Shown here one piece after another: positions 14,468 through 40,027 of a stretch of 64,000 bases of DNA. Source of the stretch: an uncultured Verrucomicrobia subdivision 3 bacterium (GTDB lineage: Bacteria > Verrucomicrobiota > Verrucomicrobiia > Limisphaerales > UBA11358); the NCBI GenBank assembly GCA_903872345.1, contig CAIQKM010000033.1, forward strand, positions 1 to 64,000, read 5' to 3'. Below the pieces are notes generated by a model. The model did not search any database and had not been told where the DNA came from. It saw nothing but the letters and a program-made list of their open reading frames with translations. Position 1 is the first letter of the stretch; each line of letters opens with the position of its first letter. Made by a program: the position numbers and the translations under genes.

Positions 14468-14469
14468 AT

Positions 14470-20048: not shown

Positions 20049-20111
20049 CATGAATGAAACCAGCCACTGCCAATTCAATTGCCGCCCCCATGGTGGCCAT
20101 GCCGCAGGCAT

Positions 20112-22181: not shown

Positions 22182-24482
22182 ATGAATTATCGCTCTCCCG
22201 GCATCCCTTTGGCAGAAGCCGGCGGTCTGCCTCCCATCCGTGGGGCCGCCAGCCCGGCGGAAACCGTCGTTAAGCGGGATCCTTCCGATGCCTCCATTGG
22301 CACCGGTAACTTTACCCAGGGCTTGCCGGCCTATTGGTTCGCGCGGGGCATTGGCGGGGAAGGGCGTGAAGGCATGAGCAGCCCCTACGCGCACTCCGCC
22401 TGGGTGCGTCGGGCCATCAAGTTTGTGTCCGGGCCGATCTCCTCGGTGGATTTGGTCTTTACCCAGCCGAAGGCCTCGGCGGCCATGCGCCGGCATCGGG
22501 GGCAGGGCCGGCGGCTGTTCACCAGCCGGGGCATTGTGGCCCGTAATCAGGCCGCCGAGGTGGATCTGCCCCAAATCCGCGAATGGCTCAGGGAGCCGAT
22601 GGCGGGCCTAACCTATGAGGACTTCGTGGAAGCATCCCTGGGCTGGTACAAATTGCAGGAATGTTTCTGGGTACTGGCGGATCAGGACGCCCGCGTTCCG
22701 TTCCCGGAAGTGAAGGCCAATCCCTACGCGCCCATCATCGTGGCCCGGCCGGATCGGATGCGGCCCACCGTGGCAGCCGGCAAGATTACGGCGTGGAATT
22801 TTACCGATGCCAGCGGCAAGGTCTGGGAGTTGGATCCCGAGCAGGTGGTGCGCCTCTTTGGCTGGAATCCCTATGATCCCCATCGCGGCCTGGGCGATTA
22901 TGCCAGCGCGCACTTGGCGGCGGAATCGCATCACCTCGGCAGCAAGTTCAAGCGCAACCTCACGGCGGATAATGATACCGCCCCGATCATCAGCGCCAAA
23001 AACGGCACCCCCAGCGATTTGCAGATTGAGCAAATCAAGATGAGCATCCTGGAACGTCGCCAGGCGCGGATGCGCGGCAACAGCAAGGCGCTCTTCCTGC
23101 CCGGCGAAGTGGACGTGCATGACCCCAAGATTCTCAGCGTGGACGCGGCGTTCATTGCCGGCATGTTGGAAGATCGCCACGAAATCTTCATCGCCTTCGG
23201 CGTGCCGCCCAGTTTGGCGGATGTGAAGGCCAGCTACAGCATCGGCCAGGCGAGCGATTGGTTTGCGCTTATCTTTAATACCTGCATTCCCGAGGGGAAC
23301 AAATTCTGCGCGGCCCTGGAGCAATTGATCTTCCGCCTCAGCGGCGAGCGCGTGGAAGTGGGTTTGGATTGGGATGAGCACTACGTCATGCAACAGGTGC
23401 GCAGCGAACGGATGAAAGATGCGGACAGCCTGTTCGGCAAGGGTGTGCCCATGAAGGTAATTAGCGAGTATCTGAATCTGGGCCTGCCCGAGTACGAGGA
23501 ATGGAATCAAGGCTACATCCCCATCAACCTCACGCCCGTGAGCGGCGCGGCCAATGAAGCGGCCCAGACGGTGCCAGAACCGGCCGCCGATGATTTTAAT
23601 GAGACGCCCGGCGCGGACAATGCCACGGGTGAGGCCAAGGCCGGCAGCGCCTTGATTCGCAATGCATTTTTGCAACGGTCCAATGGGGCACCGGCAACTT
23701 GCCGGAGGAAGCCGGCCAGCAAGAAACTGTGGGAGCAGCACATGAAGCTGCGCGGCGCGGCCATCAAACAATATCAGGCCAAGGTAAGCAAGCTGTTCAT
23801 GGCTTACCGCGTAACGGCCCTGAAACATTTGGATGCCGTCTATGCCGGGAAAAGCGTGGCCACCAAATCCCTGGTGGAAGTGATTTTCTCCGCCACCGGG
23901 TTTAATCGCGATCTCAAAACGAACCTCAAACCGGTCACGCAATCCGTGCTGCAACGCGCGGGCGAAGAGTTGTTCGGCGAGATCGGCCGCCCGGAAGATG
24001 CCTGGACCATGGCGCCGCCCAAGGCCGTGGCCTTTATCGAAACGCGCGACAAGCTGCTGGCCAGCGTGGGCGACACCGCGCAAAGCCAGTTGAACACCGC
24101 CTTGCAGGAAGGCATTGCCAATGGCGAGACCACCGCCGAATTGGCCGGCCGCGTGAAAGGCGTCTTTAACAATTTGCAGAACTTCGAGGCCCGCCGCATT
24201 GCCATGACGGAGACGAGCGCCGCCTACGGCTTCGCCCGGCACGAAGCGATGAGCGATGCCGGCATTGAGTTCAAGAGCTGGCTTTCCAGCCACGGGCCGA
24301 ACATGCGCGAGGCTCATGCCCAGGCGGAGTCGGATTATGCCGATGCGCCCATTCCCCTGGATGAACCCTTCATCGTGGATGGCGAAGAACTGATGTACCC
24401 CGGCGATGATGCCGGTTCCCCGGGCAACGTGATTAACTGCCACTGCATTCAACTGGCCGTGGCCAAACCCAACGACGAATAA
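22182..24482 (+). CDS. Fused portal (DUF935/Mu gp29-like) and minor head/F-like (Mu gp30) protein
   Basis: N-terminal part portal-like; C-terminal RRIAMTETSAAYGFARHEA...NVINCHCIQLAV is the phage Mu F-like region. Confidence 0.8.
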   Translation: MNYRSPGIPLAEAGGLPPIRGAASPAETVVKRDPSDASIGTGNFTQGLPAYWFARGIGGEGREGMSSPYAHSAWVRRAIKFVSGPISSVDLVFTQPKASAAMRRHRGQGRRLFTSRGIVARNQAAEVDLPQIREWLREPMAGLTYEDFVEASLGWYKLQECFWVLADQDARVPFPEVKANPYAPIIVARPDRMRPTVAAGKITAWNFTDASGKVWELDPEQVVRLFGWNPYDPHRGLGDYASAHLAAESHHLGSKFKRNLTADNDTAPIISAKNGTPSDLQIEQIKMSILERRQARMRGNSKALFLPGEVDVHDPKILSVDAAFIAGMLEDRHEIFIAFGVPPSLADVKASYSIGQASDWFALIFNTCIPEGNKFCAALEQLIFRLSGERVEVGLDWDEHYVMQQVRSERMKDADSLFGKGVPMKVISEYLNLGLPEYEEWNQGYIPINLTPVSGAANEAAQTVPEPAADDFNETPGADNATGEAKAGSALIRNAFLQRSNGAPATCRRKPASKKLWEQHMKLRGAAIKQYQAKVSKLFMAYRVTALKHLDAVYAGKSVATKSLVEVIFSATGFNRDLKTNLKPVTQSVLQRAGEELFGEIGRPEDAWTMAPPKAVAFIETRDKLLASVGDTAQSQLNTALQEGIANGETTAELAGRVKGVFNNLQNFEARRIAMTETSAAYGFARHEAMSDAGIEFKSWLSSHGPNMREAHAQAESDYADAPIPLDEPFIVDGEELMYPGDDAGSPGNVINCHCIQLAVAKPNDE

Positions 24483-24485
24483 ACT

Positions 24486-24677
24486 ATGAGCCGACCCTCT
24501 TTTAAATCTGTCATTCGCCCGGATCTGAATGTCCGCCGCGTGGGCCGTCGCACCGAAGTGTCCAAGCGCGATGGCCTCGGCAGCCTCACCTATGTGACCG
24601 AGAAAGCGAATGCGCAGACCGCCGCCTTGCTTAATTCCAAATTTCCCATGGCGGTCATCGCCCCGCCTATTCGCTAA
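24486..24677 (+). CDS. Small phage protein
   Basis: 63-aa ORF in head operon. Confidence 0.4.
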   Translation: MSRPSFKSVIRPDLNVRRVGRRTEVSKRDGLGSLTYVTEKANAQTAALLNSKFPMAVIAPPIR

Positions 24678-24678
24678 C

Positions 24679-25374
24679 ATGAAACCCAATACCATGCTCC
24701 GCCGCACGATTCACCCGCAGATCCGGGTGCTGGATGAAGCCAAGGGCCTTGTTGAATACATCGCCACCGATGAATCCGTGGATAGCTACAATGAGATCGT
24801 GCGCGCGGGCGGCGCCGACTTCTCGCGCTTTGAAAAGAACGCGCCGTTTGTGGACAGCCATGATTATTCCCAAATAGACAAGTGCCTGGGCCGCGTGGTG
24901 GATTGGAAGATCACCGGCAACCGCGTGGTGGAGACCGTGCAATGGGCCATTGATGTGGCCGAAAACAAAATGGCCCAATACGGTTTTAGCATGACCAAGG
25001 CCGGCTATCTCAAAGCGGTGAGCATTGGCTTCATGCCCACCGCCTACGCCACCAAGTGGGACAGCAACCCCACGCCGTTTCAGGATGCGCTGAAGGATAT
25101 GAACCTGCCGGCCGGTACCAACGTCACCTGCGTTTACCTGGCCTGGCTGCAACTGGAACTCTCCGCGTGCGTCATCGGTGCCAACGGCAATGCCGTGGCC
25201 AAAGCCTACAAGGCCGGCGTGGTGGATGATGCGTTCCTCGACTTAATTTCCGCGCAGCGCGCGCAGTCTGACACCGCCAACTTGACCGATGGTCCCGCTG
25301 CCGTCGAGTTGGCCCGGCAGCGGGCAAAAACGGCGTTTCTGGTGGAAATCCAAACCAAAATTAAAACGTTATGA
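24679..25374 (+). CDS. HK97-type prohead protease
   Basis: PFVDSHDYSQIDKCLGRVVDWKI and KAVSIGFMP motifs. Confidence 0.8.
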   Translation: MKPNTMLRRTIHPQIRVLDEAKGLVEYIATDESVDSYNEIVRAGGADFSRFEKNAPFVDSHDYSQIDKCLGRVVDWKITGNRVVETVQWAIDVAENKMAQYGFSMTKAGYLKAVSIGFMPTAYATKWDSNPTPFQDALKDMNLPAGTNVTCVYLAWLQLELSACVIGANGNAVAKAYKAGVVDDAFLDLISAQRAQSDTANLTDGPAAVELARQRAKTAFLVEIQTKIKTL

Positions 25375-26753
25375 TGAAATTCCGTAATATCTTGCTCGCC
25401 CCGGATTCCGCCGCCGGCGTGCTCCCCGAAGCCGATTTCCAGCGCAAAGTGCTGGGTGGAGTCGAAACCCTGACCAAAGCTCAGGAAAAACAACAGACCG
25501 ACCTCGCCAAGGTGATGGGCGATCTGGACCGCGCTGACAAAGAGGTGAAAGCCGCTTTAGAAGACCTCACCAAAGTCAAGAACCAGTCCAACGCCTCTTA
25601 CGAGGACGTGCTGAAACGCATGGAGAAGGTGCAACGCCAGGTGACGTTGAACGCCAATTCCAGCTTCCGCAATCCCATCCAGCGGGCGCTGGCGGATGAA
25701 GAATTCCGCACGCGCATGAACGCCACGGCGCGCTACATGTTCGCCCTGCAAACCAAATCCAAGTGCGATCCGGCCTACATCAAGCTGGTCGAAGAGGGCA
25801 GCGCCCAAGCCAAAGCCATCACCGGCGTGGATTCCGGCCTCGGCCAGGCCACCGTGCCCACCGACACGTTCAATACGATCTATGATCTGTTGCTCGAATA
25901 CGGCGATTACTCCACGCTGGGCACCACCCGCGTGGGTGCGCGCACCAATGTGCTGCCCGTGGCCACGGCCCGCCCGCAGTTCTACTGGATTGGTTCGCAA
26001 TCCACCCTGGCGGAAGGTTCCGCGATCACGGCCGGTGCCTTCGGTGGTTCGCAGGTGCTGCTCATCATCAACACCCTCGCGGTGCTGATGTATGCCGCGC
26101 GCGAATTGTTGCAGGATTCCACCATTGATCTCGCGCCGTACATCACGCGCCAGTTGGTGCAGAGCATCGCTTGGGGTATGGATACGGCCACCTTCATCGG
26201 CACCGGCAACCAGGACACCACCAACGGCGGTTACGTGGGCATCTTCAATGCCGCGCTGGCCAATACCAACCTGGGCGTGAGCGCCGGGGCCGGTCGCACC
26301 CAGGTGAGCAAGTTGTTGGTGGATGACTTCGTCCAGGCGCAACTCACCGTGAGCGCGCAGGTGCTCCGCAAAAAGCCCATGTGGTGGGCGCACCCCCAGA
26401 TGATGGCGCGCATCGCCCTCATCAAAGACGGTCTCGGCCGCCCGATCTTCCAGACGTGGCAGGAAGTGCCCAACCCCGGATCCATCGGCAGCATCCTCGG
26501 TTTCCCCGTGCATCCCACCGCCATCGCGCCGAACACGGATGGCAACAGCCAGCCCGTGATCGTCTTTGGCGACCCGGATGGGCAGGAAAACGGCATTCGC
26601 GTGGATCTGGAGCTCGCCACCAGCGAAGACATCGGTTTCCCGCAGAACTTGGTGGCTTACCGCGCCCTGCTGCGCGCGGGCTGTAAAATTCTCACCACGG
26701 CGGGTTCTACCACCCTCAAACCCTTTGCCGTGCTCAGCACGGCCGCCGCCTAA
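25371..26753 (+). CDS. HK97-type major capsid protein
   Basis: Directly follows protease; N-terminal coiled-coil delta-like domain; PTDTFNTIYDLLLEYGDYS..., IGTGNQDTTNGGYVGIF, GSILGFPVHPT. Confidence 0.85.
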   Translation: MMKFRNILLAPDSAAGVLPEADFQRKVLGGVETLTKAQEKQQTDLAKVMGDLDRADKEVKAALEDLTKVKNQSNASYEDVLKRMEKVQRQVTLNANSSFRNPIQRALADEEFRTRMNATARYMFALQTKSKCDPAYIKLVEEGSAQAKAITGVDSGLGQATVPTDTFNTIYDLLLEYGDYSTLGTTRVGARTNVLPVATARPQFYWIGSQSTLAEGSAITAGAFGGSQVLLIINTLAVLMYAARELLQDSTIDLAPYITRQLVQSIAWGMDTATFIGTGNQDTTNGGYVGIFNAALANTNLGVSAGAGRTQVSKLLVDDFVQAQLTVSAQVLRKKPMWWAHPQMMARIALIKDGLGRPIFQTWQEVPNPGSIGSILGFPVHPTAIAPNTDGNSQPVIVFGDPDGQENGIRVDLELATSEDIGFPQNLVAYRALLRAGCKILTTAGSTTLKPFAVLSTAAA

Positions 26754-26821: not shown

Positions 26822-27712
26822 ATGAAATCTGAAAACGAAATCAAAGCTCTCCCGCTGGAGGATCTCCAGAAATTCGTGATTGAACTGCGCGCGGTGCCCA
26901 CCGGCGACAAGTTCTACCCCACCGCCAAAGTGTTGATCGCCTTTGCGACCGGCCTGAAAAAGTACAAGGAACCGGAGCTCGTGGAAGTGACCAACGAGGC
27001 GGATCATCCCGTGCCCGTGGACGGCAAGGAAATCGCCGCCGGTGCCACCGGCAAGGTGTACCCCTGGCAAGCTGCCGCCCTTTCCCGCTGGCTCACGCCC
27101 GTGGGCAAAGTGGCCAGCCTGCTGCTGTTTCTGTTTGCCCTGGCGTTTACGGCCGGCGCACAGGTTCAGCCGTATGTGCTGGGCAGTGCCAGCCAGTACA
27201 ACGTGGTGGCCGTAAATGGTTTTTATGCCACCACGAATCTGAACGGCCCCACCTTCACCAACGCCACCGGCGGCGGCACGGTCTATTACACGGCCACCGT
27301 CACCAACGCCACGGCCATCTACACCAATGCCAATTGGGCTTTTAACGCCTCCGGCATTTGGACGAACACGCCCACCTACAGCACCAACAACCTGATCAAT
27401 CAGCCGGGCGTGGTGGGTTTGGTGAATTATGACACGGCGAATATCCAGTTCGGCGGCGCGCTCACGGCCGCCGGCACGGGCACCAATGCCCTGGCAAATT
27501 GGGATTTTTCCAATGACGCCGTGAATTGGCAGACCAACGCCCTCGTGCAAACGCTGATCCTGAACGGCACCCAGTTTGTGACCACCAACAGCACGCTCAC
27601 GCTGTTCGGTCCGGGGTACATACGTCTGAACTCCATCAGCATCTCCAACGGCGTGCCGTTCACCAATATCTTGGTGACCGTCAGCCGCAAACCCAGCCGT
27701 ACTGGCCCTTGA
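26822..27712 (+). CDS. Phage protein with internal signal/TM segment and Thr/Asn-rich exported domain
   Basis: About 95-aa N-terminal domain, then VGKVASLLLFLFALAFTAGAQ, then TN-rich region. Confidence 0.6.
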   Translation: MKSENEIKALPLEDLQKFVIELRAVPTGDKFYPTAKVLIAFATGLKKYKEPELVEVTNEADHPVPVDGKEIAAGATGKVYPWQAAALSRWLTPVGKVASLLLFLFALAFTAGAQVQPYVLGSASQYNVVAVNGFYATTNLNGPTFTNATGGGTVYYTATVTNATAIYTNANWAFNASGIWTNTPTYSTNNLINQPGVVGLVNYDTANIQFGGALTAAGTGTNALANWDFSNDAVNWQTNALVQTLILNGTQFVTTNSTLTLFGPGYIRLNSISISNGVPFTNILVTVSRKPSRTGP

Positions 27713-27738
27713 ACGCCGGTCTAACCCACGTTTAAGCC

Positions 27739-27921
27739 ATGTTAAATCAACCGCCCCAGGATCGAATGGTACGTGCCGTACAGGCCATTACCAGGTCCGT
27801 GCCTGCGCCCGTTCGGTCTGGGGCGGTTTTCTCCCCCGAAACGCCTGGCTACGAAGAATGGTTGCGCCGCCAGGCCCAGCCGGTTCGTAAATCGGCAATC
27901 GTCAATCGTAAATCCCCATGA
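27739..27921 (+). CDS. Small phage ORF
   Basis: 60 aa; its C-terminus RKSAIVNRKSP is encoded by heptamer repeats and its stop overlaps the next ATG. Confidence 0.35.
   Translation: MLNQPPQDRMVRAVQAITRSVPAPVRSGAVFSPETPGYEEWLRRQAQPVRKSAIVNRKSP
27886..27913 (+). repeat. Heptamer tandem spacer (CGTAAAT CGGCAAT CGTCAAT CGTAAAT)
   Basis: Immediately before ATG 27918. Confidence 0.85.
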
Positions 27922-28592
27922 ACGCTGGCTTCTCCAATCTCGATTACCTGAAACGCCAGTTGCTGGCCCCGGCCTTGCGCGCCACGGTTACGTACGATGA
28001 CCAGATTCTCGCGCTGGGCCAGGGCGTGGTGGGCATGTTCCAGAATTTGTGCAACCGCGAGTTCGGTTACCAAGCCGGCATTCAGGAGATTGCCCTGGGC
28101 GACCGCTCCTTCTGGTTTGCGCGCCGGATCCCGGTAACGCAATTCACCGGCGTGAACCTGCGTTTTTTTAAGTCCGACGATTGGGTGAGCATTCAGAACC
28201 AGCCCCTGCAGGCGGATGAAGAAAAGGGCCTCATCCATTTCGGCTACACCCTCGGCCGCTCGCCCATTCAATTCCAATTGATTTACAACGGCGGCTATTG
28301 GTGGGAGCAGTTGGAGCCGGATGACGCCGCTTTCCCCAGCGCGATCCCCGCCGACATCACCAACAACGCCGCCGGGATTGATCCCAAGAAATTTTTGCTC
28401 CCGCCCGATCTCCTGCTGGCCTGGGTACTGCAATGTAAGCATATGTGGCAAACGATTGATCCCCGCGGCACCAAGATCGTGGCGGAAGAAAAACTGGCCC
28501 GTGCCGTGCCGCAGCAAGTGTTCGGCGATATGGACCTGGTTCCGCAAGTGGCGAACCTGCTGAAACAATATTACCGCTATCAAATCACCTAG
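27918..28592 (+). CDS. Head-tail connector-region protein
   Basis: 224-aa ORF between capsid and tail-completion genes. Confidence 0.55.
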   Translation: MNAGFSNLDYLKRQLLAPALRATVTYDDQILALGQGVVGMFQNLCNREFGYQAGIQEIALGDRSFWFARRIPVTQFTGVNLRFFKSDDWVSIQNQPLQADEEKGLIHFGYTLGRSPIQFQLIYNGGYWWEQLEPDDAAFPSAIPADITNNAAGIDPKKFLLPPDLLLAWVLQCKHMWQTIDPRGTKIVAEEKLARAVPQQVFGDMDLVPQVANLLKQYYRYQIT

Positions 28593-29153
28593 ATGAGCCA
28601 AGCCTTTGACATCCAAATCTCCGGCGACCTCGTGGCGCAAATCCCGCGCCTCAAGGATCCCGCCGGGCACAGCCGTGCGATCGCGCGGGAGATGGATTAC
28701 CAAAATCAACTCACCGTGGCCCGCATTCAGGCCGGGCACTTGTCCGGCCCCACCAGCGACAGCAGCCTGAGCGTGCGCACCAATCGGCTGCGCAGTTCGG
28801 CCAATGCCAGCAAGGCGGTCATGGCGGGTGCCACCGTGGTGAGCACCATTGGCAGCAACGTGGTTTATGCGGCGGTGCACGAATTTGGCGCGGTGATCCA
28901 GCGCACGGTCAAAGCCGGATCCGTGAAGCTCCGCACCAACAAGCAGGGCAATCTGCTGCGCCGAGGCAACCTCGCCACCTTTGCCGGCCGCAATCACAAA
29001 TCCTTTAAGACGGTGCAATTCAAAGGCGGCAAAAGCTACACCATCACCATCCCGGCGCGCGCGCCCTTCGCCCATGGCATTGCCGACCGCCTGCCGGAAT
29101 ACACCGCCGCGTTTGAAGCCGTGACCGCCGAATACCTGGGAGGGGCTAACTAA
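28593..29153 (+). CDS. Phage virion morphogenesis / tail completion-like protein
   Basis: AAVHEFGAVIQ and IPARAPFAHGIADR motifs typical of phage virion morphogenesis proteins. Confidence 0.65.
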   Translation: MSQAFDIQISGDLVAQIPRLKDPAGHSRAIAREMDYQNQLTVARIQAGHLSGPTSDSSLSVRTNRLRSSANASKAVMAGATVVSTIGSNVVYAAVHEFGAVIQRTVKAGSVKLRTNKQGNLLRRGNLATFAGRNHKSFKTVQFKGGKSYTITIPARAPFAHGIADRLPEYTAAFEAVTAEYLGGAN

Positions 29154-29890
29154 TGCTCACCGATTTCAAACAGCTCCAGCGCGATGCCGCCTTCGCTTTT
29201 GCCAGCGACAGTCGGTTGCAGACGGTGAACATCATCACGCGCGAGCAGTTGCTGGCGGATCAATCCCGCCTGCCCGATGCCACGCTCAGTGCCGAGGTGC
29301 TCGTGTATATCACGCCGCGCAACGGCAAGATGGGCGTGGGCGTGATTGTGGAGAAGCCGCGCTTTGAAGTGCTGAATCCACAGGCACCGGGGCCGCAAGG
29401 CGACATCGTGATTGAATCCCTGGTGCTGGAAGATCAGCTCACTAACATGGATCCCGCCGAGGGCACCTTGCTGGCCGCGGACTATGTCGCGCAAATCCTG
29501 TTGGAAATCGGCCACGGCTGGAATTTGAATTTCCAATCCGATTTCACGGCGGACCGCCAGGCGATGGTGGAAGCCAAGGAATGGCAGCCGCTGCGCGCCT
29601 ACAAGGTTAGCCACCGCATGATCCTCAGCCGCGCCCAGACCGCGCGTGTGACCACGCCCGCCATCACCAACGATGGCACCAACATCACGCTCACGAACGA
29701 TCCCAGCACGCCGTCCGCCGCCATCTATTACACGCTCAATAGCGATTCCCCGGCCCCGGACAATGCCCAAGCCACCCTTTACACTGGCCCGTTTGCCGCG
29801 CCCGCTGGCACCACCACCTTGCGCTGGGCGGCCTACCAGCCTGGCTGGCTCAATTCTGCGTTCGCCCAAGTAACCATCAACAATAATTAA
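29153..29890 (+). CDS. Tail-module protein with C-terminal chitobiase-like repeat domain
   Basis: C-terminal AAIYYTLNSDSPAPDNAQATLYTGPFAAPAGTTTLRWAAYQPGW resembles CHB_HEX_C_1 domains. Confidence 0.55.
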   Translation: MLTDFKQLQRDAAFAFASDSRLQTVNIITREQLLADQSRLPDATLSAEVLVYITPRNGKMGVGVIVEKPRFEVLNPQAPGPQGDIVIESLVLEDQLTNMDPAEGTLLAADYVAQILLEIGHGWNLNFQSDFTADRQAMVEAKEWQPLRAYKVSHRMILSRAQTARVTTPAITNDGTNITLTNDPSTPSAAIYYTLNSDSPAPDNAQATLYTGPFAAPAGTTTLRWAAYQPGWLNSAFAQVTINNN

Positions 29891-29902
29891 TCCCCAAAAC
29901 CT

Positions 29903-30850
29903 ATGAGTCTATCCATCTCTCGCGCGAACCTGCCTGGCAGCGGCGCACCCAAGATCACCTACAAAGGCGCGACCCTCTGGACGCGCGCCGATTTGATGAT
30001 TCCCCTGAAGCAATCGCTGAAGGAACAAAAAAGCAGCATGTACGGCCTTGTTACGTGGACGCGCGATGGCCGTAGCATTGAATTCGAGATCCCGATCTAC
30101 GGGTTCTGGCAATCGCTTTCCGTGCTGTTTCCCAGCTACATTCTCAACGGCATCTACGGATCCCGCATCTTTGGTCTCACCGACACGCCCTTGACCATTG
30201 TGGCCCGCAATGGCGATCAGATTGTGCTCAACAACGTGCAGCTCGTGGGCATCACCAACCTCAAGCTGAAGGCCAATGAACAGATTTTCTCCGGCAACGC
30301 CAAGTTTGTGGCACTGATCGGCAACAACCTGTCGCCGAATACGCCCAATTCGTATTACACCATTACCACCGGCGCGGCGTATGTGGATGCCGGCTTTGCC
30401 CAGGCGAACTTCAAAGCCCTGGCGTGGACGGGCGCGTGGGGCGCGCGCAGCGGGTTCACCAACATCCTCACCCAAGATGGCTGGGATATTGACTGGCAGG
30501 TGAAATTCCTGAGCCCGGATGATTTGATTGATGGCATCGGCCCCGTGGATAAGTTCTTTGATTCCTGCCTGCCCAAGATTTCCGCCATCGTCGTGGGCCC
30601 CAGCCTGGCGCAGTTGGATGCCGCCGTGGATTTCCAGGGCAACAACGCCACCGTGGGCGCGGACATCGCCGCCGATTCGGATCCGCTCGTGCTCACCGAT
30701 GGCACCAGCACCATCACGCTGGCCGTGAGCAGCGTGATTGAAACCGGCCTCGTCTTTGCGCCCGGTAAAAAACGCATCGCCAAAACCACCTGGCAGGGAA
30801 CGCTCGGCTTCTCCGCCGGCGTGCCCAACGCCATCGCCGCCGTGTCGTGA
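29903..30850 (+). CDS. Tail tube/major tail protein candidate
   Basis: 315-aa protein between tail completion and tape measure genes. Confidence 0.5.
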   Translation: MSLSISRANLPGSGAPKITYKGATLWTRADLMIPLKQSLKEQKSSMYGLVTWTRDGRSIEFEIPIYGFWQSLSVLFPSYILNGIYGSRIFGLTDTPLTIVARNGDQIVLNNVQLVGITNLKLKANEQIFSGNAKFVALIGNNLSPNTPNSYYTITTGAAYVDAGFAQANFKALAWTGAWGARSGFTNILTQDGWDIDWQVKFLSPDDLIDGIGPVDKFFDSCLPKISAIVVGPSLAQLDAAVDFQGNNATVGADIAADSDPLVLTDGTSTITLAVSSVIETGLVFAPGKKRIAKTTWQGTLGFSAGVPNAIAAVS

Positions 30851-30910
30851 GGCCACGACGGGCCATTATTAAAAATGTCTGACCACCCTTAACCAAAAAA
30901 TAAAACACCT

Positions 30911-31564
30911 ATGAAAAAAATCCTGCTCATCGCTGATTCCGCCGCCGGCATTCCGGCTGATGTGGAAGCCAAACTCGAAACCGAAGTCGCCACCGCGCCC
31001 GCGCCCGTGCCCGCGCTGGATACCAAGCCCATCATTGCCGATGTGGAACACGCCATCGCCGCGCTGGCCGCGCAGCCCAACTTGCATCCGCTGCTCGGCT
31101 TCGCCCTCACCAACTTGCGCGGCGCGCACAACGCCCTCAAAGGCCACCTCAAGGGCTTGTCCGCCCTGCTGGTGCTGCTCGCCGTGCTGCTGGCGTTTGC
31201 CAGCCCGGCCCGCGCGCAAATCTTCTACGGCGGCGTGTCCGTGACCAACAGCGCGTTTGCGCCCGTGCAATCCTCGTTTGTGCTGCTCACCAATGTGGCC
31301 TCCTCCACGCTCCCCGCGCGCACGTTGCAAGTGCTGAACATCCAAACGAATCAACCCATTACCGTGTGGTACGCCTACGCCTTCGCCGGGTCCACCAACT
31401 TGTTCCTGGTGAATTCCAACATCTACACCTTCCCCGCCAGCAATGGCTGGGTGAATGGCGCGACGTTCACCACCAACGTGGCCAGCGTCTTTAACAGCGT
31501 GCCGATCCAGCCCTACGGCCTGATCAACCTCGGCGGCTATACCAACACCGTCCTCTTTCAGTGA
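30911..31564 (+). CDS. Phage protein with internal signal/TM segment and exported domain
   Basis: LSALLVLLAVLLAFASPARAQ at about residue 80, then TN-rich region. Confidence 0.6.
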   Translation: MKKILLIADSAAGIPADVEAKLETEVATAPAPVPALDTKPIIADVEHAIAALAAQPNLHPLLGFALTNLRGAHNALKGHLKGLSALLVLLAVLLAFASPARAQIFYGGVSVTNSAFAPVQSSFVLLTNVASSTLPARTLQVLNIQTNQPITVWYAYAFAGSTNLFLVNSNIYTFPASNGWVNGATFTTNVASVFNSVPIQPYGLINLGGYTNTVLFQ

Positions 31565-31573
31565 GGCCGCTGC

Positions 31574-31601
31574 CCCGAGACCCGAAATCCGAAACCCGTT
31601 C
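31574..31601 (+). repeat. Heptamer tandem spacer (CCCGAGA CCCGAAA TCCGAAA CCCGTTC)
   Basis: Immediately before GTG 31604. Confidence 0.8.
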
Positions 31602-31603
31602 CC

Positions 31604-31996
31604 GTGAAACTGACTTGGACTCCACCAACCGGCGGTGCCGTGGTGCTTGGCGATGATTCGGTGAAATCCACCATCATCGTCGAGCAACTTGATGCCCCGG
31701 CGCTCGTTCAGAAACTGCTGTTCTTTCGCGGGGTCACCGCCCAACTGGTGGCGCGCGGCGGGGATGAAGGCACGTTTGTGTGCGTCATCCAGCCCGCCCT
31801 GGCCAATGCCGATGCCGCCAGCGCGTATCTCAAAACGGAGCTGGCCCGGTCCGGTCAGGCGGGCAGTCTCGCCTGGGGCCGCGTTTCCGCCATCTTCACG
31901 TTCAACGGTGCCGTGCTGCGCCGGGTGACCGTGGCGGAATTGAACGGCGCGCGGCTGCGGCTGCGCTACTCCTTCGGCTTCGCCTCCCTCACCTGA
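31604..31996 (+). CDS. Phage tail-module hypothetical protein (GTG start)
   Basis: 130-aa ORF preceded by a heptamer spacer. Confidence 0.5.
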   Translation: MKLTWTPPTGGAVVLGDDSVKSTIIVEQLDAPALVQKLLFFRGVTAQLVARGGDEGTFVCVIQPALANADAASAYLKTELARSGQAGSLAWGRVSAIFTFNGAVLRRVTVAELNGARLRLRYSFGFASLT

Positions 31997-32024
31997 TTTC
32001 CAATTGCCAATTGCCAATCTCCAA
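31997..32024 (+). repeat. Heptamer tandem spacer (TTTCCAA TTGCCAA TTGCCAA TCTCCAA)
   Basis: Between stop 31996 and ATG 32029. Confidence 0.85.
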
Positions 32025-32028
32025 AATT

Positions 32029-33315
32029 ATGAGCAAAACCCTGTTTAAAGCCTCTTTAAAGGCCCTGAGCGCCTTTGCCGCCCTCGGCGTGTTTGCCATC
32101 CTCGGTTCCTTTCTACTGGCCCTGTTTTTGCGCTTGGTAACCCTGGCCTGGCACTGGGGCTGGCGGCTGTTCGCCTTGTTGGCCATTTGCCATCTGCCAT
32201 TGGCCATCTCCGCCCGCGCCCAGACCACGGCGGTCTTTTTTTCAATGCAGAACCTGACTGGCGGCGTGAACAACCGGACGATTAACCTTTTGCCGGACAC
32301 CGCCAATGCGCCGGTTTTTGTGGGCACCAATTTGCTCCAACTCGGGCCAATCCAGCTTCAACCGGTGGGCGGCCAAGTGACAACCAACCTGGTGCCGTGG
32401 GGCTACTCGCTCTATGTCCAGGGCTGGCCGCGCCCGGTTCATATTGTGGTGCCCAGCAGCACCAACACGCTCAATGTGGTGGGCATGATTAACACCAATC
32501 TCTACTGGCCGCTGACGATTTACCAAATGACGGCCACCGGCACCAACGGCATTAATGTTACGCAAACCAACAACCAGGTAATCATTGACGGCAGCGGGCT
32601 GGATGCCGCCGGCACCGCGTGGGCGACATTTTCCTTTAATGCCACCAACGGCATCTATGCCTTTAATCTCGCCTCCAGCTATGGCCTGCCCGCCGCCGGC
32701 GTGGTGGGATTGGGATCGGCGGCGTTGGTAAGCACCAACACGTTTTACAGTCAGGGCGTTTCGGGTTACTTGGATATCCTGTACAACCTCGCGCAAGGCC
32801 AGGTGGGCTGGCTGGTCGTGAGCAACTTGTCTTCCATTCAGGCCGTGCCGCCATTGTTGGATTACTTGTGGACCGCCGGAAACAATACGGCCTCGCTCGC
32901 CACGTTTGCCGCCGTGAGCACCAATCAAATCACGGTTTACGGCGCGGGCACGGCCAGCGCCAACGGCACCTACACCTTCAACGCGGCCGCCGGTGTTTGG
33001 ACGAATGCCGCCACGGCCGATACGATCACCAACAGCGGTGCCTACCTCATCATTGCCACCGGGGCCACCAAACTCTACAAATCGTCCAATGCCCTGGCCT
33101 ATCCGGCCGGCAGCGGCGCATGGTTCAATGGCAGCGGTTACAGTGGCAGTTCGCCCATGCCCTACAATGCGTTTCTGCGGGTAACGGATTATTCGCTCAA
33201 TAATGTTGCGCCCACCAACATTCCCGGCAAAGCCCTGACCGGCCTTGCCACCAACACAGTCGTGCCGATCTCCGCGCATGTGACCAATGGCGTTGTTACG
33301 TGGACCAGCCCGTAA
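32029..33315 (+). CDS. Phage protein with N-terminal TM/signal region and TN-rich exported domain
   Basis: Start MSKTLFKASLKALSAF after a heptamer spacer; RLFALLAICHLPLAISARAQ signal-like segment. Confidence 0.6.
   Translation: MSKTLFKASLKALSAFAALGVFAILGSFLLALFLRLVTLAWHWGWRLFALLAICHLPLAISARAQTTAVFFSMQNLTGGVNNRTINLLPDTANAPVFVGTNLLQLGPIQLQPVGGQVTTNLVPWGYSLYVQGWPRPVHIVVPSSTNTLNVVGMINTNLYWPLTIYQMTATGTNGINVTQTNNQVIIDGSGLDAAGTAWATFSFNATNGIYAFNLASSYGLPAAGVVGLGSAALVSTNTFYSQGVSGYLDILYNLAQGQVGWLVVSNLSSIQAVPPLLDYLWTAGNNTASLATFAAVSTNQITVYGAGTASANGTYTFNAAAGVWTNAATADTITNSGAYLIIATGATKLYKSSNALAYPAGSGAWFNGSGYSGSSPMPYNAFLRVTDYSLNNVAPTNIPGKALTGLATNTVVPISAHVTNGVVTWTSP
32179..32213 (+). repeat. Heptamer tandem repeat inside coding sequence (TTGGCCA TTTGCCA TCTGCCA TTGGCCA TCTCCGC)
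   Basis: Five 7-mers encoding part of the LLAICHLPLAISAR signal-like segment. Confidence 0.7.
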
Positions 33316-33323
33316 CCCCTAAC

Positions 33324-33351
33324 CCCGAAATCCGAGACCCGAAACCCGTTT
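33324..33351 (+). repeat. Heptamer tandem spacer (CCCGAAA TCCGAGA CCCGAAA CCCGTTT)
   Basis: Between stop 33315 and ATG 33362. Confidence 0.8.
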
Positions 33352-33361
33352 CCGAGCTGCC

Positions 33362-34888
33362 ATGAACCTGGAATATAAAATCACCACCACGGCCGAACTG
33401 GCCGGCGCCGAGGCGGCGGCGGACGCCCTGGAACGCCAGATCGGCAAGGCCAAGGCGCTTAAACAGGATTATTCCGGGCTGGAAGCGCAGCTCAAAACGA
33501 TGCGCGGCAGTATTGATGAGTACAAGACCGCCACCGCCGCGCAGACCGCCGCCGCCGAGGAAGAGAAGCGCGCCAATGAGCAGTTGGCCGATTCGTATCA
33601 TGAGGTTTCCCGTTCCGAAGCGGAGATGGCGGAAAAAGGGGAGAAGGCCGAACTCAGTCACCGGCAGATGTTCCGCGTGGCCGGCGAGCTGAATCGCATT
33701 CTGCCCGGGCTGGGCGAATTAATGATGGTGGCATTTGAACCCGTCATCGCACCGCTGATTATTTTGGCCGGTTTGTTTGCTGGCCTGGTCGAACACATTA
33801 AATCGGTTCGCGAAGAAATGGCCAAGATGGCGGAAGCCAACATTGACGTGAGTCGCATCACCGATGGCACCGAAGCCATGGAAGCTCAGTTGGACGTAAT
33901 GCGCGAGAGCGTGGGGAAAGCCGATGAATTTGCCACAGCCACCGACCATGTGGCGGATGCCCAAAAACGCGTGACCGATGAAACGAACCACGCGTTGGAT
34001 GCCCTGCGCACCCAGGCGCAGTTTGAGGAGGAGGAAGCCAAGGCCCGCGAAAAGCTGGCGCTGGATCAGGTGCGCCAGAAAGTGGCCACGGGCCAGCTTA
34101 CGCCCGCGCAAGGCGAGGCGGCGGAGATCGACATCACCTCGCGCAATGCCCGTGAAGCCGACCGCCGCAAATCCGCTTTGGAAGCGGCGGAAATCGCCGC
34201 CCGCGAAAAGGAACAGGCTGAATTAAAGGCCCAGCAATTTGACCTGAGCCAAAAGAAAATCAAGGAAGCCGGGTCGCCCGAGGCCGCGCAAACCTCGGCG
34301 GAAGAGGCCAAAAAACTGGCCGATAAATATCAGAAGGATGCCGATGCCCAGGTCAAATATCTCCAGGACTTTGGCAAGGACATGTCGCCCCAGGAGTTCA
34401 CCCAGCAACTGGCCAAGCTTTCCCAGCTCCAGCAACTGGCGGATCAGCAGGCGGTGGTGGCCGGGGAAGCGGCGGAAAAAGCCAAGGCCGTAAAGGAAGA
34501 GTGGGAGAAAACCGTGGGCGCGCTGAAAAAGGTTAATGACCGCTTGGCGGAACTGGGCGAGCAGATTCCCCAGCTCGAATCCTCGCACAAATCAGCCGAC
34601 AAACACCGCGCCACCATGCGCGGGATTGAAGATCAATCCACGGCCATTAACCGGGTAACGGGTGATATTGACCGCGCCAACAAAGACGTGGCCACGATCA
34701 ACGAGATCAGCGGCCACGCCACCCAAACGCAGGCGGATGCCAAGCGCGTGGCCGATGCTCTCAAGGATGCCCACGCGGCCGTGGCCGATGCCGCCGCCAC
34801 CATTGGCAAACTCGGCGACATGGGCGCGGATGTGGAGAATCTCAAAAAGCAGGTCGCGCAATTGCGCATGGCCGTTGACCACCACTGA
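33362..34888 (+). CDS. Tail tape measure-like protein
   Basis: 508 aa, long coiled coils with a single hydrophobic segment (MMVAFEPVIAPLIILAGLFAGLV), upstream of distal tail genes. Confidence 0.6.
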   Translation: MNLEYKITTTAELAGAEAAADALERQIGKAKALKQDYSGLEAQLKTMRGSIDEYKTATAAQTAAAEEEKRANEQLADSYHEVSRSEAEMAEKGEKAELSHRQMFRVAGELNRILPGLGELMMVAFEPVIAPLIILAGLFAGLVEHIKSVREEMAKMAEANIDVSRITDGTEAMEAQLDVMRESVGKADEFATATDHVADAQKRVTDETNHALDALRTQAQFEEEEAKAREKLALDQVRQKVATGQLTPAQGEAAEIDITSRNAREADRRKSALEAAEIAAREKEQAELKAQQFDLSQKKIKEAGSPEAAQTSAEEAKKLADKYQKDADAQVKYLQDFGKDMSPQEFTQQLAKLSQLQQLADQQAVVAGEAAEKAKAVKEEWEKTVGALKKVNDRLAELGEQIPQLESSHKSADKHRATMRGIEDQSTAINRVTGDIDRANKDVATINEISGHATQTQADAKRVADALKDAHAAVADAAATIGKLGDMGADVENLKKQVAQLRMAVDHH

Positions 34889-34890
34889 TT

Positions 34891-37557
34891 ATGGCCCTCG
34901 CCGCGTTCACTCTCTTCTACAACGGCGTGGAGAAGTCTTTGGCCGATTGGGGCCTGGACGATCTGCAATTCTCGGACAACGATCTTGCGCCTGCCGTGGT
35001 GGAATTCACCGCTGCCGGCCGGGCCGTGGATGCCGCCGATCTCTTCGCTTACGGTGCCCGCGTGATCATTTACCAGAACCGCGCCAGCGCGGGCACGGCT
35101 TGGAGCGGGGGCACCTGTTGGTTCGATGGCCGCGTGGAACCGTGGGAACGCAGCGGCGCACCGGGCATGGAAGATTGCATTGGCCGGCTGGTCAACGCCT
35201 GGTGGTATTTCGAGCGCATCCAATACAAGATGCAATTCACGCGCGCCACCAGCGCCAGCACCACGGCCGTGTACACCACCAACCGCGTGGTGCTGGGCGT
35301 GGGTTACAGCGGCGTGGGTTCGGCGTGGACGACGCTGAACACGGGCCAGCAGATCGCGGCGGCCGTCAATTGGGCGATCAGCCAGGGTGCGCCGGTGGCC
35401 TTGGGTAATGTCGCGCCGTGGGCACCGGTCATCAGCGATTTTCAGAAGTGCATCAAGGTTTCGCAGGTGATCCAGAAGATGTGGCAGATCGAATCTGACT
35501 TCATCGTGGTCTGGGATTATTCCACCGTGGGCACCAATCCCAGCGCGCCGGGCGTGCCCACCATCCACTTCTTAAAAGGCTCGCAAACAAACCTTAACCC
35601 GGCCTTAAGCGCAGGGGTTAAGGCCGGCTTGCTACTCACGCCCCTCACCATCAACCTGGATGCCGGCAACTGGCTGGGCAAGGTAAAGCTCAAGCCGCGC
35701 CCGGATTGGGTTAAGAGTTATGTAGCCATCAATTACGATCAGGTGGCCAGCTTCGGCAGCAATCAATATTTGTCCATCGGTTCGGATCAATACCCCGCCG
35801 TGCTGCCGGCGGATACGGAGAGCAAATTCAACGGCGTGGATCTGTACTACGATCTGGCCGGGGCCAAAGTGGCCGTGCAAAACCAAAGCGGCAATCTCAC
35901 GACCGCGCCGTTTGACATCACCAGCCTGGCGCAATGGCAGCAATGGAAAGCGGAACTCACCGCGCCCACGGTGGTGAGCGCCGTCATCCTCACCGCCGGC
36001 ACCACGCCGGCCACCACGGCCAATCATCCCGCGCCCGCCCTGGTCACCAAGGAAGTGGACAATACCGGGGCCACCGTGGCCTACAACGCCGCTAATGCCT
36101 ACGAGCTGCTGGATGGGGCGTATTGCGATTGGATGGCCGATGCCACGCTCATGCCGGCCAACGGGTATCCGGTGATCACCGCGCAAAAGGTCAAGGCCAC
36201 CGCGTGGGTGTATCTCACCTTCAGCAACGGCACCAAAACCTACAAACAGCTTACGCGCGAGTTCACGGCCATCAGCTATAACACCTTCAACGTGGCCACG
36301 GTGCTCAATGTGGCCACGCAAACGGTCACGTCCTATGCCGAACCGCAGCCGGTGGGGCTGGCGCAGATCATGTACAACGCCTGGCGTTCGCTGGCGGTGG
36401 AAGGCAGCTTTACCACCACGGAAACCGAGCTGGGGGCCAGCGGCATCCAACTCAGCCGGGCGAACTGCCTGAACTTCACCAGCGCGGCCGTGGCGGCCCA
36501 TGCCGGCGATGGCAGCATATTGGATTGGTCCGCCGTCAACGCGCCGATCCGCCGGCTCAGCGGCAGCGCGGTGAAGGGCACCACCACCGTGGAATTTGGC
36601 GCGCCGCTGCATCTCACGGCCAACGCGCTGGTGGATCTCGTGCGCAACAGCCGCGTGCGGGTGACCAGCATTGATCTCAACTATATCTTCGGCGGCCGGC
36701 TTGCCAACGGCGGGGGCACCGTAAAGCACGCGCGCAAAACCCACGCGCACCATGCCGAACACGGGGCCGATGAACCGCAGGTGCATGTGGTGACCGGCCC
36801 GGATGCGTTAGACTCCACGCGCACCCAGGTAATGACGAGCGACAGCAGCACGGGCATTGTCACCGTTACCCAGCAGCCCACGGCGGGCGGCTCGGCCTAC
36901 ACCAGCGGCATCGTGGCCCCGGAGTTTTCCGGCGCGGGCGCGCCCGGCGCCGGCACGCTGGCGGCCAGCGCCAGCTATCTCACGGGCAATTATTATTGGG
37001 ATACGACCAACTCCGTTTTGTACCGCTGCACGACCAGCGGCAGCAATTCGTCCTCGTTGTGGACGCCGGTGGGCGGCGGGGTCGGTGGCATGGTGCAATA
37101 TTTTGCCATCACCACCTTGTACCTGCTCGATTATGTTACCGCCCTGCCGATCCTCATATCTTTCCCCAGCGGGGTGTTGACCATTACTTTTGGTTCGCCC
37201 ACGAGCATTGCCAAGCCGAACCGAATGCGCCCATCCGTGGCCAGTGAATTGATTGACGGACTAACCATCACGTACAGCAACCACACCGATGAAAACACGC
37301 GCACGGCCAGCGATGGCACGAACACGGAATTTCAGGTGGTTTTTCCCCGGTACACCACCATGCACATTTTGGGTTTCGACAGCTATCTGACCACGCCGCC
37401 CACCGGCACAGCGGCGCTGACCTTCCTGAATTCCTTGTGCGTGATTAAAGCGATGAAAATGCCCGGTGCCGGCACCGGGCTGGTGGATGCCATACCCAGC
37501 GCCATCCTTTACGAGGAAATCACCACCCGCGTTTGGGCGCGCCGCTACGCGCAATAA
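34891..37557 (+). CDS. Large distal-tail protein
   Basis: 888-aa ORF following tape measure. Confidence 0.55.
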   Translation: MALAAFTLFYNGVEKSLADWGLDDLQFSDNDLAPAVVEFTAAGRAVDAADLFAYGARVIIYQNRASAGTAWSGGTCWFDGRVEPWERSGAPGMEDCIGRLVNAWWYFERIQYKMQFTRATSASTTAVYTTNRVVLGVGYSGVGSAWTTLNTGQQIAAAVNWAISQGAPVALGNVAPWAPVISDFQKCIKVSQVIQKMWQIESDFIVVWDYSTVGTNPSAPGVPTIHFLKGSQTNLNPALSAGVKAGLLLTPLTINLDAGNWLGKVKLKPRPDWVKSYVAINYDQVASFGSNQYLSIGSDQYPAVLPADTESKFNGVDLYYDLAGAKVAVQNQSGNLTTAPFDITSLAQWQQWKAELTAPTVVSAVILTAGTTPATTANHPAPALVTKEVDNTGATVAYNAANAYELLDGAYCDWMADATLMPANGYPVITAQKVKATAWVYLTFSNGTKTYKQLTREFTAISYNTFNVATVLNVATQTVTSYAEPQPVGLAQIMYNAWRSLAVEGSFTTTETELGASGIQLSRANCLNFTSAAVAAHAGDGSILDWSAVNAPIRRLSGSAVKGTTTVEFGAPLHLTANALVDLVRNSRVRVTSIDLNYIFGGRLANGGGTVKHARKTHAHHAEHGADEPQVHVVTGPDALDSTRTQVMTSDSSTGIVTVTQQPTAGGSAYTSGIVAPEFSGAGAPGAGTLAASASYLTGNYYWDTTNSVLYRCTTSGSNSSSLWTPVGGGVGGMVQYFAITTLYLLDYVTALPILISFPSGVLTITFGSPTSIAKPNRMRPSVASELIDGLTITYSNHTDENTRTASDGTNTEFQVVFPRYTTMHILGFDSYLTTPPTGTAALTFLNSLCVIKAMKMPGAGTGLVDAIPSAILYEEITTRVWARRYAQ

Positions 37558-37559
37558 TT

Positions 37560-38849
37560 ATGGCCATCGGCTTAAAAGTCATGTGCTCCATCCAGAGCGG
37601 CAATGTTGGCGGCGGCTTGCGCGAATCGCCGGTAAAAGCCCTCAACGGAAATCAGCTTCGGCCCGTACTGCTCACGCGCATGGGGTATGCTTGCAAGGGG
37701 GTGAATGGAATTGCGGGCTACTATTCGGGGATGTATGACAACCAGGCGGTTTTGGTGGCTCCCGGCGTTTATGCCCCCTGGCCCTACGCAAAAAACGCCG
37801 TCGATGATATGAACCGGCAGTGGACGCTTTACTCCGGGTTGGTCATCAATTATTCGAATTCGCTGCCCGGAGCTTCCCCCGACAGTTTTACCTATACTTC
37901 ATCGCTGGCGGGAACTGCCCCGCAGACGAGCTATGTGCAAACCAATCCGTCCCTTTCGGCCTCGGATCATGATTGGGGCAAATCCCCGTCCAACGGTAAT
38001 TATCAATGCCAAATCACCTCGGACACCTCATGGGCGCAGCAACAATACGATCCCGTTATCCCGCCCCATGCGATCTTTGCCACCTGGAGTCTTTCGCTCA
38101 GCGGCGGGATTGACGTGGCCGGCATTTATTCTGCCGTGCATGGCGACTTCTTTGGTGCCAGCTTTCCGAGTTTGTTTACGAGCGGTTTTCAGAACATTTA
38201 TTACAAGGATTTTCCCGCCACCATCAGCGGTGCGCAACTGGCGCCCTCGCTTATCAATCCGGCGGAGTGGGATGGCTCCATCACGCTGGGCAGTCCTTAT
38301 ACCGGCGGTCCTTATTACACCGGGGGATCGACCTACACCGCCTTTGCCGGCGCGGGCACCCTGCTTTCCGGCATCGCGGCCGCCAACGGTTGGCGGATCT
38401 CCGGTTCGGCCATCGGCGGCGGCGGCAACATTACCATTTTTCGGGGCCAGGCCACTTTGGACACCACCGTGGTACAGCCGGCCGTGCCCTTTTGGATCGG
38501 CCTTTACACCGAGGCCACCTGGTCCCCGGTGAGCTTTTACGATGGCACCAAAAGCAGTCCGCAGCCGAAGGCAGCCCCGATAAAATCCATCAAACTATTT
38601 CGCATCGGCAAGCTGCCCACGGATGGCACCATCATTGCCTACGAATCATCGGGAATTTTCCAGCTTCCTTTTCCCGCGCAAACGCCCTTTCCCATTCAGG
38701 ATTTTGCCGGTTTGGGCGTCGTGGCGCGCTATTATTTTGTCGTGGTGGGTCAAGATCCGGAAAGCTGGGCGAGCCAATATGGCTACGTCTTTGATTTGAC
38801 CGCCGACAACGCCAATGTCACCGCCGATAATACCACCGTAACCCTATGA
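37560..38849 (+). CDS. Tail-associated protein
   Basis: ATG 37560 (MAIGLKVMCSIQSGN); 4-bp overlap with next gene. Confidence 0.5.
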   Translation: MAIGLKVMCSIQSGNVGGGLRESPVKALNGNQLRPVLLTRMGYACKGVNGIAGYYSGMYDNQAVLVAPGVYAPWPYAKNAVDDMNRQWTLYSGLVINYSNSLPGASPDSFTYTSSLAGTAPQTSYVQTNPSLSASDHDWGKSPSNGNYQCQITSDTSWAQQQYDPVIPPHAIFATWSLSLSGGIDVAGIYSAVHGDFFGASFPSLFTSGFQNIYYKDFPATISGAQLAPSLINPAEWDGSITLGSPYTGGPYYTGGSTYTAFAGAGTLLSGIAAANGWRISGSAIGGGGNITIFRGQATLDTTVVQPAVPFWIGLYTEATWSPVSFYDGTKSSPQPKAAPIKSIKLFRIGKLPTDGTIIAYESSGIFQLPFPAQTPFPIQDFAGLGVVARYYFVVVGQDPESWASQYGYVFDLTADNANVTADNTTVTL

Positions 38850-40027
38850 AAAAACTCCTTGCTTCCAGCCTCCTATTTTTGGCCTTGCTTGCGCCCGTTT
38901 CCGCGCCTGCGCAAATCACCAATGTCTTCATCGGCACCACCCCGAATGACGGCACCGGCGATACCCTCCCGGTGGCCTTCACCAAGCTCAACTACAACAA
39001 TGCCTACTTCGCCGCCGCCCTTGCTTCCAACACGGCCGCCATCGTGAATTTGGCCTCCGTAACCAACTTGGTTTATCAATCGCATTTGTACCCGCTGTTG
39101 GCGCCGAATCCCTTCACTTTTACCGGTTCAAATTACATCGGCCAATTCACCAACGTCATCATCTTCAATTCCGGGGGCATCGTCAGCGGGAGTGGCGGCG
39201 GATTATCGCCTGGCACCACGCTGATCACCACCAATGTCATGAGCACCAACGGGGGCACCACTTGGCAGCTCTGGCAGCCCACCGCAGGCGCGGTGCAGCT
39301 TGCCGTTTTGACCGTGGCCGGGGTGGGAGCCGTAAACGTCAACGGAACCGACCATCCCGAATTGATCGGCCGCACCAATTCCTTCTTCGGCCAGACGTGG
39401 CAATTTGCCAACCCAATCAACCCCACTGACGGGGCCAACAAAGCTTACGTGGACGCCCGCACCGGCTACCTGCCGGGCACCGTGATCCAGCTCGCGCCGG
39501 AATGGAACATGCAAGGTCAATTTACGACGACGAATTCCAGCCTGAATTTCTTTTTGAATCAGGCCGCTAGCAACGTGCTTTCCATGTCATTTGCCTACCA
39601 ATCGGCCCCCATCGCATCCATTGCCTTGGATAGCACTGGCACCAATGTGATATTGGGTGTCACCAACAGCACTCCGGCCGGCTGGCAAATCTATGTGACC
39701 ACCAACCTCCTTGGCCCCGTCTGGCTACCCTTGGCCACCAACGGCCTCACCTGGTCAACCAACAGCGGGATCATCAGTGAAACCTTCCCCATGCCTAACC
39801 AGAGCCAAGCGTTCTTCAAGGTGGCCATCCCCGGAGCGGCCAGCATCATCGCCAGCGTGCCCGTGGCAATGCCGTTCCTTAGCCTGGCTCCCTTTACCGT
39901 CACCCATTCCACCAACAGCACCATGGGCTACGGCGCGGGCCTAGTGGCCTGCGACCAGACCAATATCTACATCAGCATTGGCACCAACGCCTGGCGGCGC
40001 TTGGCCCTGGCCACAAACAGTTGGTAA
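38846..40027 (+). CDS. Tail fibre-like protein with N-terminal signal peptide
   Basis: MKKLLASSLLFLALLAPVSAPAQ then NVFIGTTPNDGTGDTLPVAFTKLNYNNAYF, a motif seen in tail fibre proteins. Confidence 0.6.
   Translation: MKKLLASSLLFLALLAPVSAPAQITNVFIGTTPNDGTGDTLPVAFTKLNYNNAYFAAALASNTAAIVNLASVTNLVYQSHLYPLLAPNPFTFTGSNYIGQFTNVIIFNSGGIVSGSGGGLSPGTTLITTNVMSTNGGTTWQLWQPTAGAVQLAVLTVAGVGAVNVNGTDHPELIGRTNSFFGQTWQFANPINPTDGANKAYVDARTGYLPGTVIQLAPEWNMQGQFTTTNSSLNFFLNQAASNVLSMSFAYQSAPIASIALDSTGTNVILGVTNSTPAGWQIYVTTNLLGPVWLPLATNGLTWSTNSGIISETFPMPNQSQAFFKVAIPGAASIIASVPVAMPFLSLAPFTVTHSTNSTMGYGAGLVACDQTNIYISIGTNAWRRLALATNSW

Follow-up and report, generated by a model that had tools for sequence, protein, structure and literature searches.

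The assembly of tailed bacteriophages is generally placed in the cytoplasm of their hosts, and no report of Sec-exported tail fibers was found in the open literature, most subscription journals lying outside the scope of the search. The present analysis concerns a 64-kb window (the whole stretch analyzed, contig CAIQKM010000033.1, positions 1 to 64,000) of the 6.5 Mb draft genome of an uncultured Verrucomicrobia subdivision 3 bacterium. The window harbors a Mu-like prophage at about 10–40 kb, and four late genes of this prophage encode proteins with Sec-type signals. A comparable case is that of the Porphyromonas gingivalis prophages of the proposed family Nixviridae. Five of their genes, with functions unknown, encode proteins with Q-rule signal peptides and were read as outer-membrane modifiers; the major capsid proteins of these phages begin with signal-like segments, presumed to be cleaved off by the prohead protease, and the prophages are inserted in tRNA-Pro (PMC10367356). 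The Q-rule itself, i.e., Gln at position +1 after cleavage by signal peptidase I (SPase I), was described for Bacteroidetes (PMC5837995, PMC10653852), and Verrucomicrobia go unmentioned in one of the two papers (PMC5837995).

Like the Nixviridae, the prophage in question has SPase I-type signals that would expose an N-terminal Gln and, in many of its relatives, signal-like capsid N-termini. Unlike in the Nixviridae, the proteins here are fiber-like and occupy fixed slots in the late operon, some of the signals are internal and fused to phage domains, and the phages are Mu-like and belong to hosts of another phylum. The transposition genes MuA and MuB and a Mu F-like head protein are shared with Mu, D3112 and Hankyphage. 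None of the structural genes of Mu, D3112, P8625 and Bacteroides Hankyphage was read as coding for a signal-peptide protein, such segments being carried by lysis-type or membrane genes. The authors of the P8625 study reported no signal peptides in their own SignalP run; accordingly, P8625 gp13, which was flagged for its xAQ, was not judged to have a signal peptide, as the segment lies late in a small protein. Phage RAP44 does encode a lipoprotein with an immunoglobulin domain, but on the strand opposite to the late genes. A Fisher test of 4 out of 14 late genes in the window against 0 out of 80 control genes gave p = 3e-4; this result is not relied upon, because the counts represent our own reading and the loose filter also flags control segments. 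The reading tentatively favored below, with confidence close to even, is that a lineage of Mu-like phages of Verrucomicrobia exports fiber or decoration proteins via Sec late in infection and joins them to virions at or after lysis.

Late Proteins with Export-Type Signals

The four proteins, assigned to families A–D, and their signals, read from the sequence, are as follows (the relatives are denoted by L numbers).

26822–27712, forward strand: family A, the gene following that of the capsid protein; putatively cytoplasmic N-domain (residues 1–92), internal signal peptide, predicted exported jelly-roll and K.RTGP-type C-terminal end
27098–27160, forward strand: internal signal peptide of family A, VGKVASLLLFLFALAFTAGA followed by Q, about residues 93–113; aligned in 24 relatives
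30911–31564, forward strand: family B, located between the tail tube and tape measure genes; N-region (residues 1–79), internal signal peptide and predicted exported domain of 115 amino acids (aa)
31148–31216, forward strand: internal signal peptide of family B, LKGLSALLVLLAVLLAFASPARA followed by Q; same layout in L021
32029–33315, forward strand: family C; transmembrane helix, signal peptide, tail-fiber-type N-domain and variable distal part; frame open upstream to 31780
32062–32136, forward strand: first transmembrane helix of family C; stands alone as a 48-aa open reading frame (ORF) in L033
32164–32220, forward strand: signal peptide of family C, WRLFALLAICHLPLAISARA followed by Q
38846–40027, forward strand: family D; tail-fiber-like, last gene of the late operon, N-terminal signal peptide
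38846–38911, forward strand: signal peptide of family D, MKKLLASSLLFLALLAPVSAPA followed by Q, immediately before ITNVFIGTTPNDGTGDTL

All four ORFs are intact (296, 217, 428 and 393 aa, respectively) and are found on the forward strand among the phage late genes. Each protein has a basic n-region, a hydrophobic core, small residues at −3/−1 and a signal-peptidase site of the AxA-Q type (the hyphen marks the cleavage point), with cleavage predicted after residue 113 in 26822 (AGA-Q), 102 in 30911 (ARA-Q), 64 in 32029 (ARA-Q) and 22 in 38846 (APA-Q). The sequence-only reading, in which these proteins were first pointed out, is confirmed as to the coordinates and the quoted segments, which are exact and have the features of Sec/SPase I signals. 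Its statement that the segment is internal in three of the proteins, following 60–100 aa, holds for 26822 and 30911, where 92 and 79 soluble-looking residues precede it, but not for 32029, in which the preceding ~46 residues are largely a transmembrane helix. A signal at the N-terminus proper is found in 38846, L066, L122 and most of the C genes, but not in 26822, 30911 and 32029, the signals of which are described here as Sec-like only.

The combined share of Thr and Asn rises across the predicted site from 8 to 30% in 26822, from 7 to 23% in 30911, from 3 to 22% in 32029 and from 0 to 22% in 38846, so that the Thr/Asn-rich domains reported earlier were indeed found behind the sites. By comparison, twelve neighboring late proteins show a share of 7–16%, and the proteins of the host one of about 11%; the signal-peptide proteins of the host are richer in Thr and Asn than its cytosolic ones (0.141 vs. 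0.095; Mann-Whitney p = 2e-11). Thus, the sharp break in composition looks like a compartment boundary. None of the four ORFs has a convincing Pfam or PHROGs match. Folding by disulfides was rejected as a reason for export, since the predicted mature parts contain 0, 0, 0 and 1 Cys.

A gene for SPase I is present in the host. Among strict AxA sites of the host, 5 out of 53 have Gln at +1, an approximate count obtained with a crude ORF caller, and plant-type glutaminyl cyclase (PF05096) was not found in the search of the host. The phage genes obey the Q-rule and the host sample, in which such sites are not the majority, does not; this sample lends no support to the idea that AxAQ stems from a Q-rule of the host. 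A signal ending in AQ also opens small membrane proteins in other phages, both from Bacteroides and from Verrucomicrobia (L117, 20053–20439; L122, reverse strand, 14287–14739).

Conservation of the Slots and Shuffling of the Domains

A search with the capsid protein yielded about 30 viral contig loci and 13 out of 321 genomes of the same order, the named relatives being Verrucomicrobia subdivision 3, Verrucomicrobiia and Luteolibacter. The same slots are signal-bearing in about 25 related phages and in one more distant lineage. The family A gene is found in nearly all of the close relatives. Its signal is kept in all 24 aligned relatives, 19 of which have Q at +1 (four cleavage sites were read by eye, the script having picked an upstream AxA), and the parts follow in the same order: N-domain, basic residue, hydrophobic core, AxA, usually Q, and a beta domain ending in K.RTGP. 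In the B slot, a signal was found in six phages (+1 Q in three); it is internal in the window, L021, L022 and L057, and an ordinary N-terminal signal peptide in L023 and L026. The C slot bears a signal in 16 phages, with Q at +1 in half of them (8/16), and in the phages whose contigs extend to the last late gene, this gene begins with a signal peptide, followed by Q at +1, in 5/5 cases. Summed over the four slots, Gln occupies +1 in 35 out of 51 signals (5 out of 53 for the AxA sites of the host), counts that come from homologous, not independent, family members and include several sites read by eye past the AxA that the script had chosen upstream. A short N-terminal motif, MKxxILLxxDxAxG, was observed on unrelated late proteins, namely the capsid protein (25371), 30911 and the post-capsid gene product (window, L033, L018, L021 and L058), and is possibly a targeting or processing tag.

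The best evidence that the segments are signals comes from domain shuffling, i.e., from the "Rosetta" forms in L033, L066 and L122. In L033, the tail tube and tip proteins of which are 73–80% identical to those of the window, A is reduced to its N-domain (76 aa) and C to its first helix (48 aa). Of A, L066 retains the exported domain alone, which there follows a canonical signal peptide (MKKLLLSAFCAFSAVIPAYS followed by Q). In L122, a prophage of the same order with another head module, the exported domain of A is a gene of its own with a signal peptide (MKKLIIASLLIVAMALPSFA followed by Q), adjoining a fiber gene that also has a signal peptide. A second distant copy, L123, likewise opens with a signal-like segment. 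A class-wide genome search added only three further copies of family A, two of which are the exported domain alone. In the phage collection searched, cultured phages have no relative of A, C or D. No signal-bearing slots were seen in the visible tail region of L037 and L040, other prophages of the same host genus.

Chance hydrophobic segments or wrong start codons are very improbable as an explanation of these observations. A simple hydrophobicity filter does flag some segments in control phages as well, but the signals recur in the same slots across divergent phages, the cleavage site is conserved, Rosetta forms exist, and no downstream starts are conserved. In family A, no ATG, GTG or TTG is conserved before the internal signal; thus the signal is internal to the protein rather than the start of a second gene, and an internal start codon for the two-part genes was rejected. 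Among 494 host ORFs, 9 of the 417 hydrophobic segments beyond residue 60 precede [ASTVG]xAQ. The pattern of a hydrophobic segment with AxAQ in the four late proteins is not due to chance.

Capsid N-Termini and Possible Membrane Anchoring

In 13 relatives (L017, L020, L021, L022, L026, L031, L032, L036, L056, L060, L065, L069 and L113), the capsid protein opens, ahead of its coiled-coil delta domain, with basic residues and with a hydrophobic segment or hairpin. The hairpin is lacking in the window, L018, L023, L028, L057, L058 and L061. Its presence on the relatives' capsids, together with the similar segment in the P. gingivalis phages, makes a membrane-linked step of head assembly possible. 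The suggestion of membrane-coupled assembly made in the sequence-only reading is strengthened in this one, unforeseen respect by many relatives, but not by the window's own capsid, which is without the hairpin.

These hairpins bear on the idea that the segments of the four proteins are uncleaved membrane anchors which, along with the capsid hairpin of the relatives, hold heads and tails at the inner membrane while these assemble. The internal position of the segment in A and B and the extra helix in C would fit such anchors as well. This explanation is nevertheless improbable, as the AxA-Q of family A is retained although the remaining sequence diverges, ordinary N-terminal signal peptides are found in L066, L122 and all of the D genes, and the Thr and Asn content shifts at the predicted site.

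Fiber-Like Features of the Predicted Exported Parts

The AlphaFold2 model of family A has an N-domain with a predicted local distance difference test (pLDDT) score >90, a beta-sandwich of about 85 and a poorly placed joining segment. In structural comparisons, the sandwich matches jelly-roll binding modules as well as small phage proteins, the latter with a TMt of up to ~0.55, all at modest scores. The exported domain of 26822, a candidate head decoration protein, has no Pfam or PHROG match save for one weak match to Mucin. The conserved C-terminal K.RTGP points to a particular partner to which the protein may bind.

The first exported domain of 32029 resembles tail-fiber N-terminal domains in its modeled structure: Foldseek matched it to tail fibers of phCDa, phi674, BFK20 (gp21) and a lambda-like N-domain (best E-value, 2.3e-5; TMq 0.42; partial). 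The N-terminal part of family C is about 40–50% identical across six phages, and the remainder diverges. The location of the gene, ahead of the tape measure, is unusual for a tail fiber gene.

The D gene follows the tail-tip region in the window, L112, L113, L032 and L033, with diverging distal parts; 38846 and two of its relatives constitute one family. No match to family D was found in the viral-contig scan, and its relatives were reached via the tail-tip gene instead. The IGTTPNDGTGDTL stretch of 38846 is found, from residue 1–3 onward and without a signal peptide, in genes of Bradyrhizobium and Nonlabens phages (two phages inspected), and the motif also occurs in gp10-type baseplate-fiber connectors of cyanophages (E about 2), all of these motif matches being weak (E ~2–10). 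The tail-fiber motif noticed earlier in this product is thereby borne out, with the signal at the very N-terminus. Since the signal peptide is placed directly upstream of a standard fiber N-terminus, cleavage would restore that N-terminus. An alternative start just past the signal, giving a cytoplasmic form, was rejected, as none is conserved in the five D genes.

Among the relatives, the exported protein of L056 carries a PF13229 beta-helix, and the exported fiber of L122 carries a PF13472 GDSL lipase with a weak tail-fiber PHROG match and had no match in a PDB sequence search. Both domains occur in phage receptor-binding proteins.

In the favored scheme of late Sec export, the four products would be targeted to the Sec translocon late in infection and cut by host SPase I before Gln. 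38846 and 32029 would be released outside the inner membrane as tail-fiber-like proteins, while 26822 and 30911 would be two-part precursors, the N-terminal part of which is kept in the cytoplasm or membrane and the Thr/Asn-rich beta domain of which is exported; the flavivirus C-prM precursor is likewise split at an internal signal. The exported fibers, having virion-type attachment N-termini, might then dock on tails and heads once lysis opens the inner membrane, so that the final steps of assembly would take place outside the cytoplasm. Docking at lysis is favored because, among the exported parts, conservation is best in domains of the attachment type. A more far-reaching version, according to which particles are completed outside the cytoplasm, Sec-exported fibers and an SPase-cut beta-sandwich from the capsid module docking at lysis, with membrane-anchored capsids in many members, is held with more doubt.

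Several points weigh against late export followed by attachment. The signal peptides were read with hydrophobicity scripts rather than SignalP. The models of families A and C have a predicted TM-score (pTM) of 0.47 each, and the structural matches of A are at low TM-scores. B and the exported parts of A and C are missing from L033, and A is missing from L113, so assembly does not depend on them. A receptor-binding region may also be present in the tip gene, in which case D need not be the only fiber. Virion attachment is the weakest step of the proposal, being suggested by domain resemblance.

Some of these points count in favor of a different function, in which the exported fiber-derived proteins are not virion parts but, free or bound in the host envelope, block or strip receptors against re-adsorption to debris, or modify surface polysaccharide for release. 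The late receptor-blocking protein Llp of T5 is a precedent. Such a function is rather unlikely but deserves serious consideration, because two relatives manage without some of the parts and the exported domains include a lipase and a beta-helix, which could act on the envelope alone. However, the N-terminal attachment domain of the fibers is conserved and the distal part variable, as would be expected of attachment to a conserved partner rather than of a decoy acting free.

Gene Map of the Prophage

The assignment to Mu-like transposable phages is based on the MuA/MuB genes and a Mu F-type head gene (phrog_310, phrog_296, phrog_2468). The late genes on the forward strand are arranged in the order terminase, portal with Mu F-like domain, head protease, HK97-type capsid, neck, tail tube, tape measure, tip and fiber, the roles of the tail genes being assigned mostly from position.

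10446–13520, reverse strand: MuB- and MuA-like transposition genes of a transposable phage
20054–25374, forward strand: head module; terminase large subunit, portal with Mu F-like domain and head protease
25371–26753, forward strand: major capsid protein, HK97 fold, PF05065; without N-terminal membrane hairpin
29903–30850, forward strand: probable major tail tube protein, by position only, no family match; 80–84% identity in L021 and L033
33362–34888, forward strand: probable tape measure, mainly by position; without export signal
34891–37557, forward strand: probable tail tip, mainly by position; without export signal

This arrangement bears on whether the surface of the lysogen displays the four proteins, as had been suggested in the sequence-only reading, with a role in exclusion or in adhesion. 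Exported phage proteins of this lysogenic-conversion (moron) kind are known, e.g., Lom and Bor of lambda, and the five Q-rule genes of the P. gingivalis prophages (PMC10367356) could be cited as a parallel. In the window, however, the four genes lie closely spaced within the late operon, all on one strand, with three promoter-like sites found against 4.6 expected, which makes surface display in lysogens less likely. In addition, two of the proteins are fused to phage N-domains, and fiber-type domains are present. Altogether, a moron role is distinctly improbable.

Upstream of the head genes, an in-frame lipoprotein-like start (MNKILSLVLIAAAACAAALATTGC) was observed at 17214–18002, possibly related to lysis, and a class 3 lipase without a signal peptide is encoded at 18450–19205, just upstream of the terminase (PF01764, E-value, 2.6e-28; phrog_21992 esterase). 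Elsewhere in the window, at 58000–62000, the G+C content falls from ~0.59 to 0.47 across a 3.1 kb ORF on the reverse strand, which suggests a foreign island.

Implications

If the proposed late export is true, either assembly ends outside the inner membrane or these phages routinely free fiber proteins into the envelope before lysis. The annotation of virion proteins would be affected, since a signal peptide is easily read as a mark of a non-structural protein; in one survey, the absence of signal peptides on the targets of phage diversity-generating elements was taken as support for phage origin (PMC6199706). For this lineage of Verrucomicrobia phages, it would mean that a part of the apparent virus particle leaves the cell interior before the particle is completed, contrary to the thinking on known tailed viruses.

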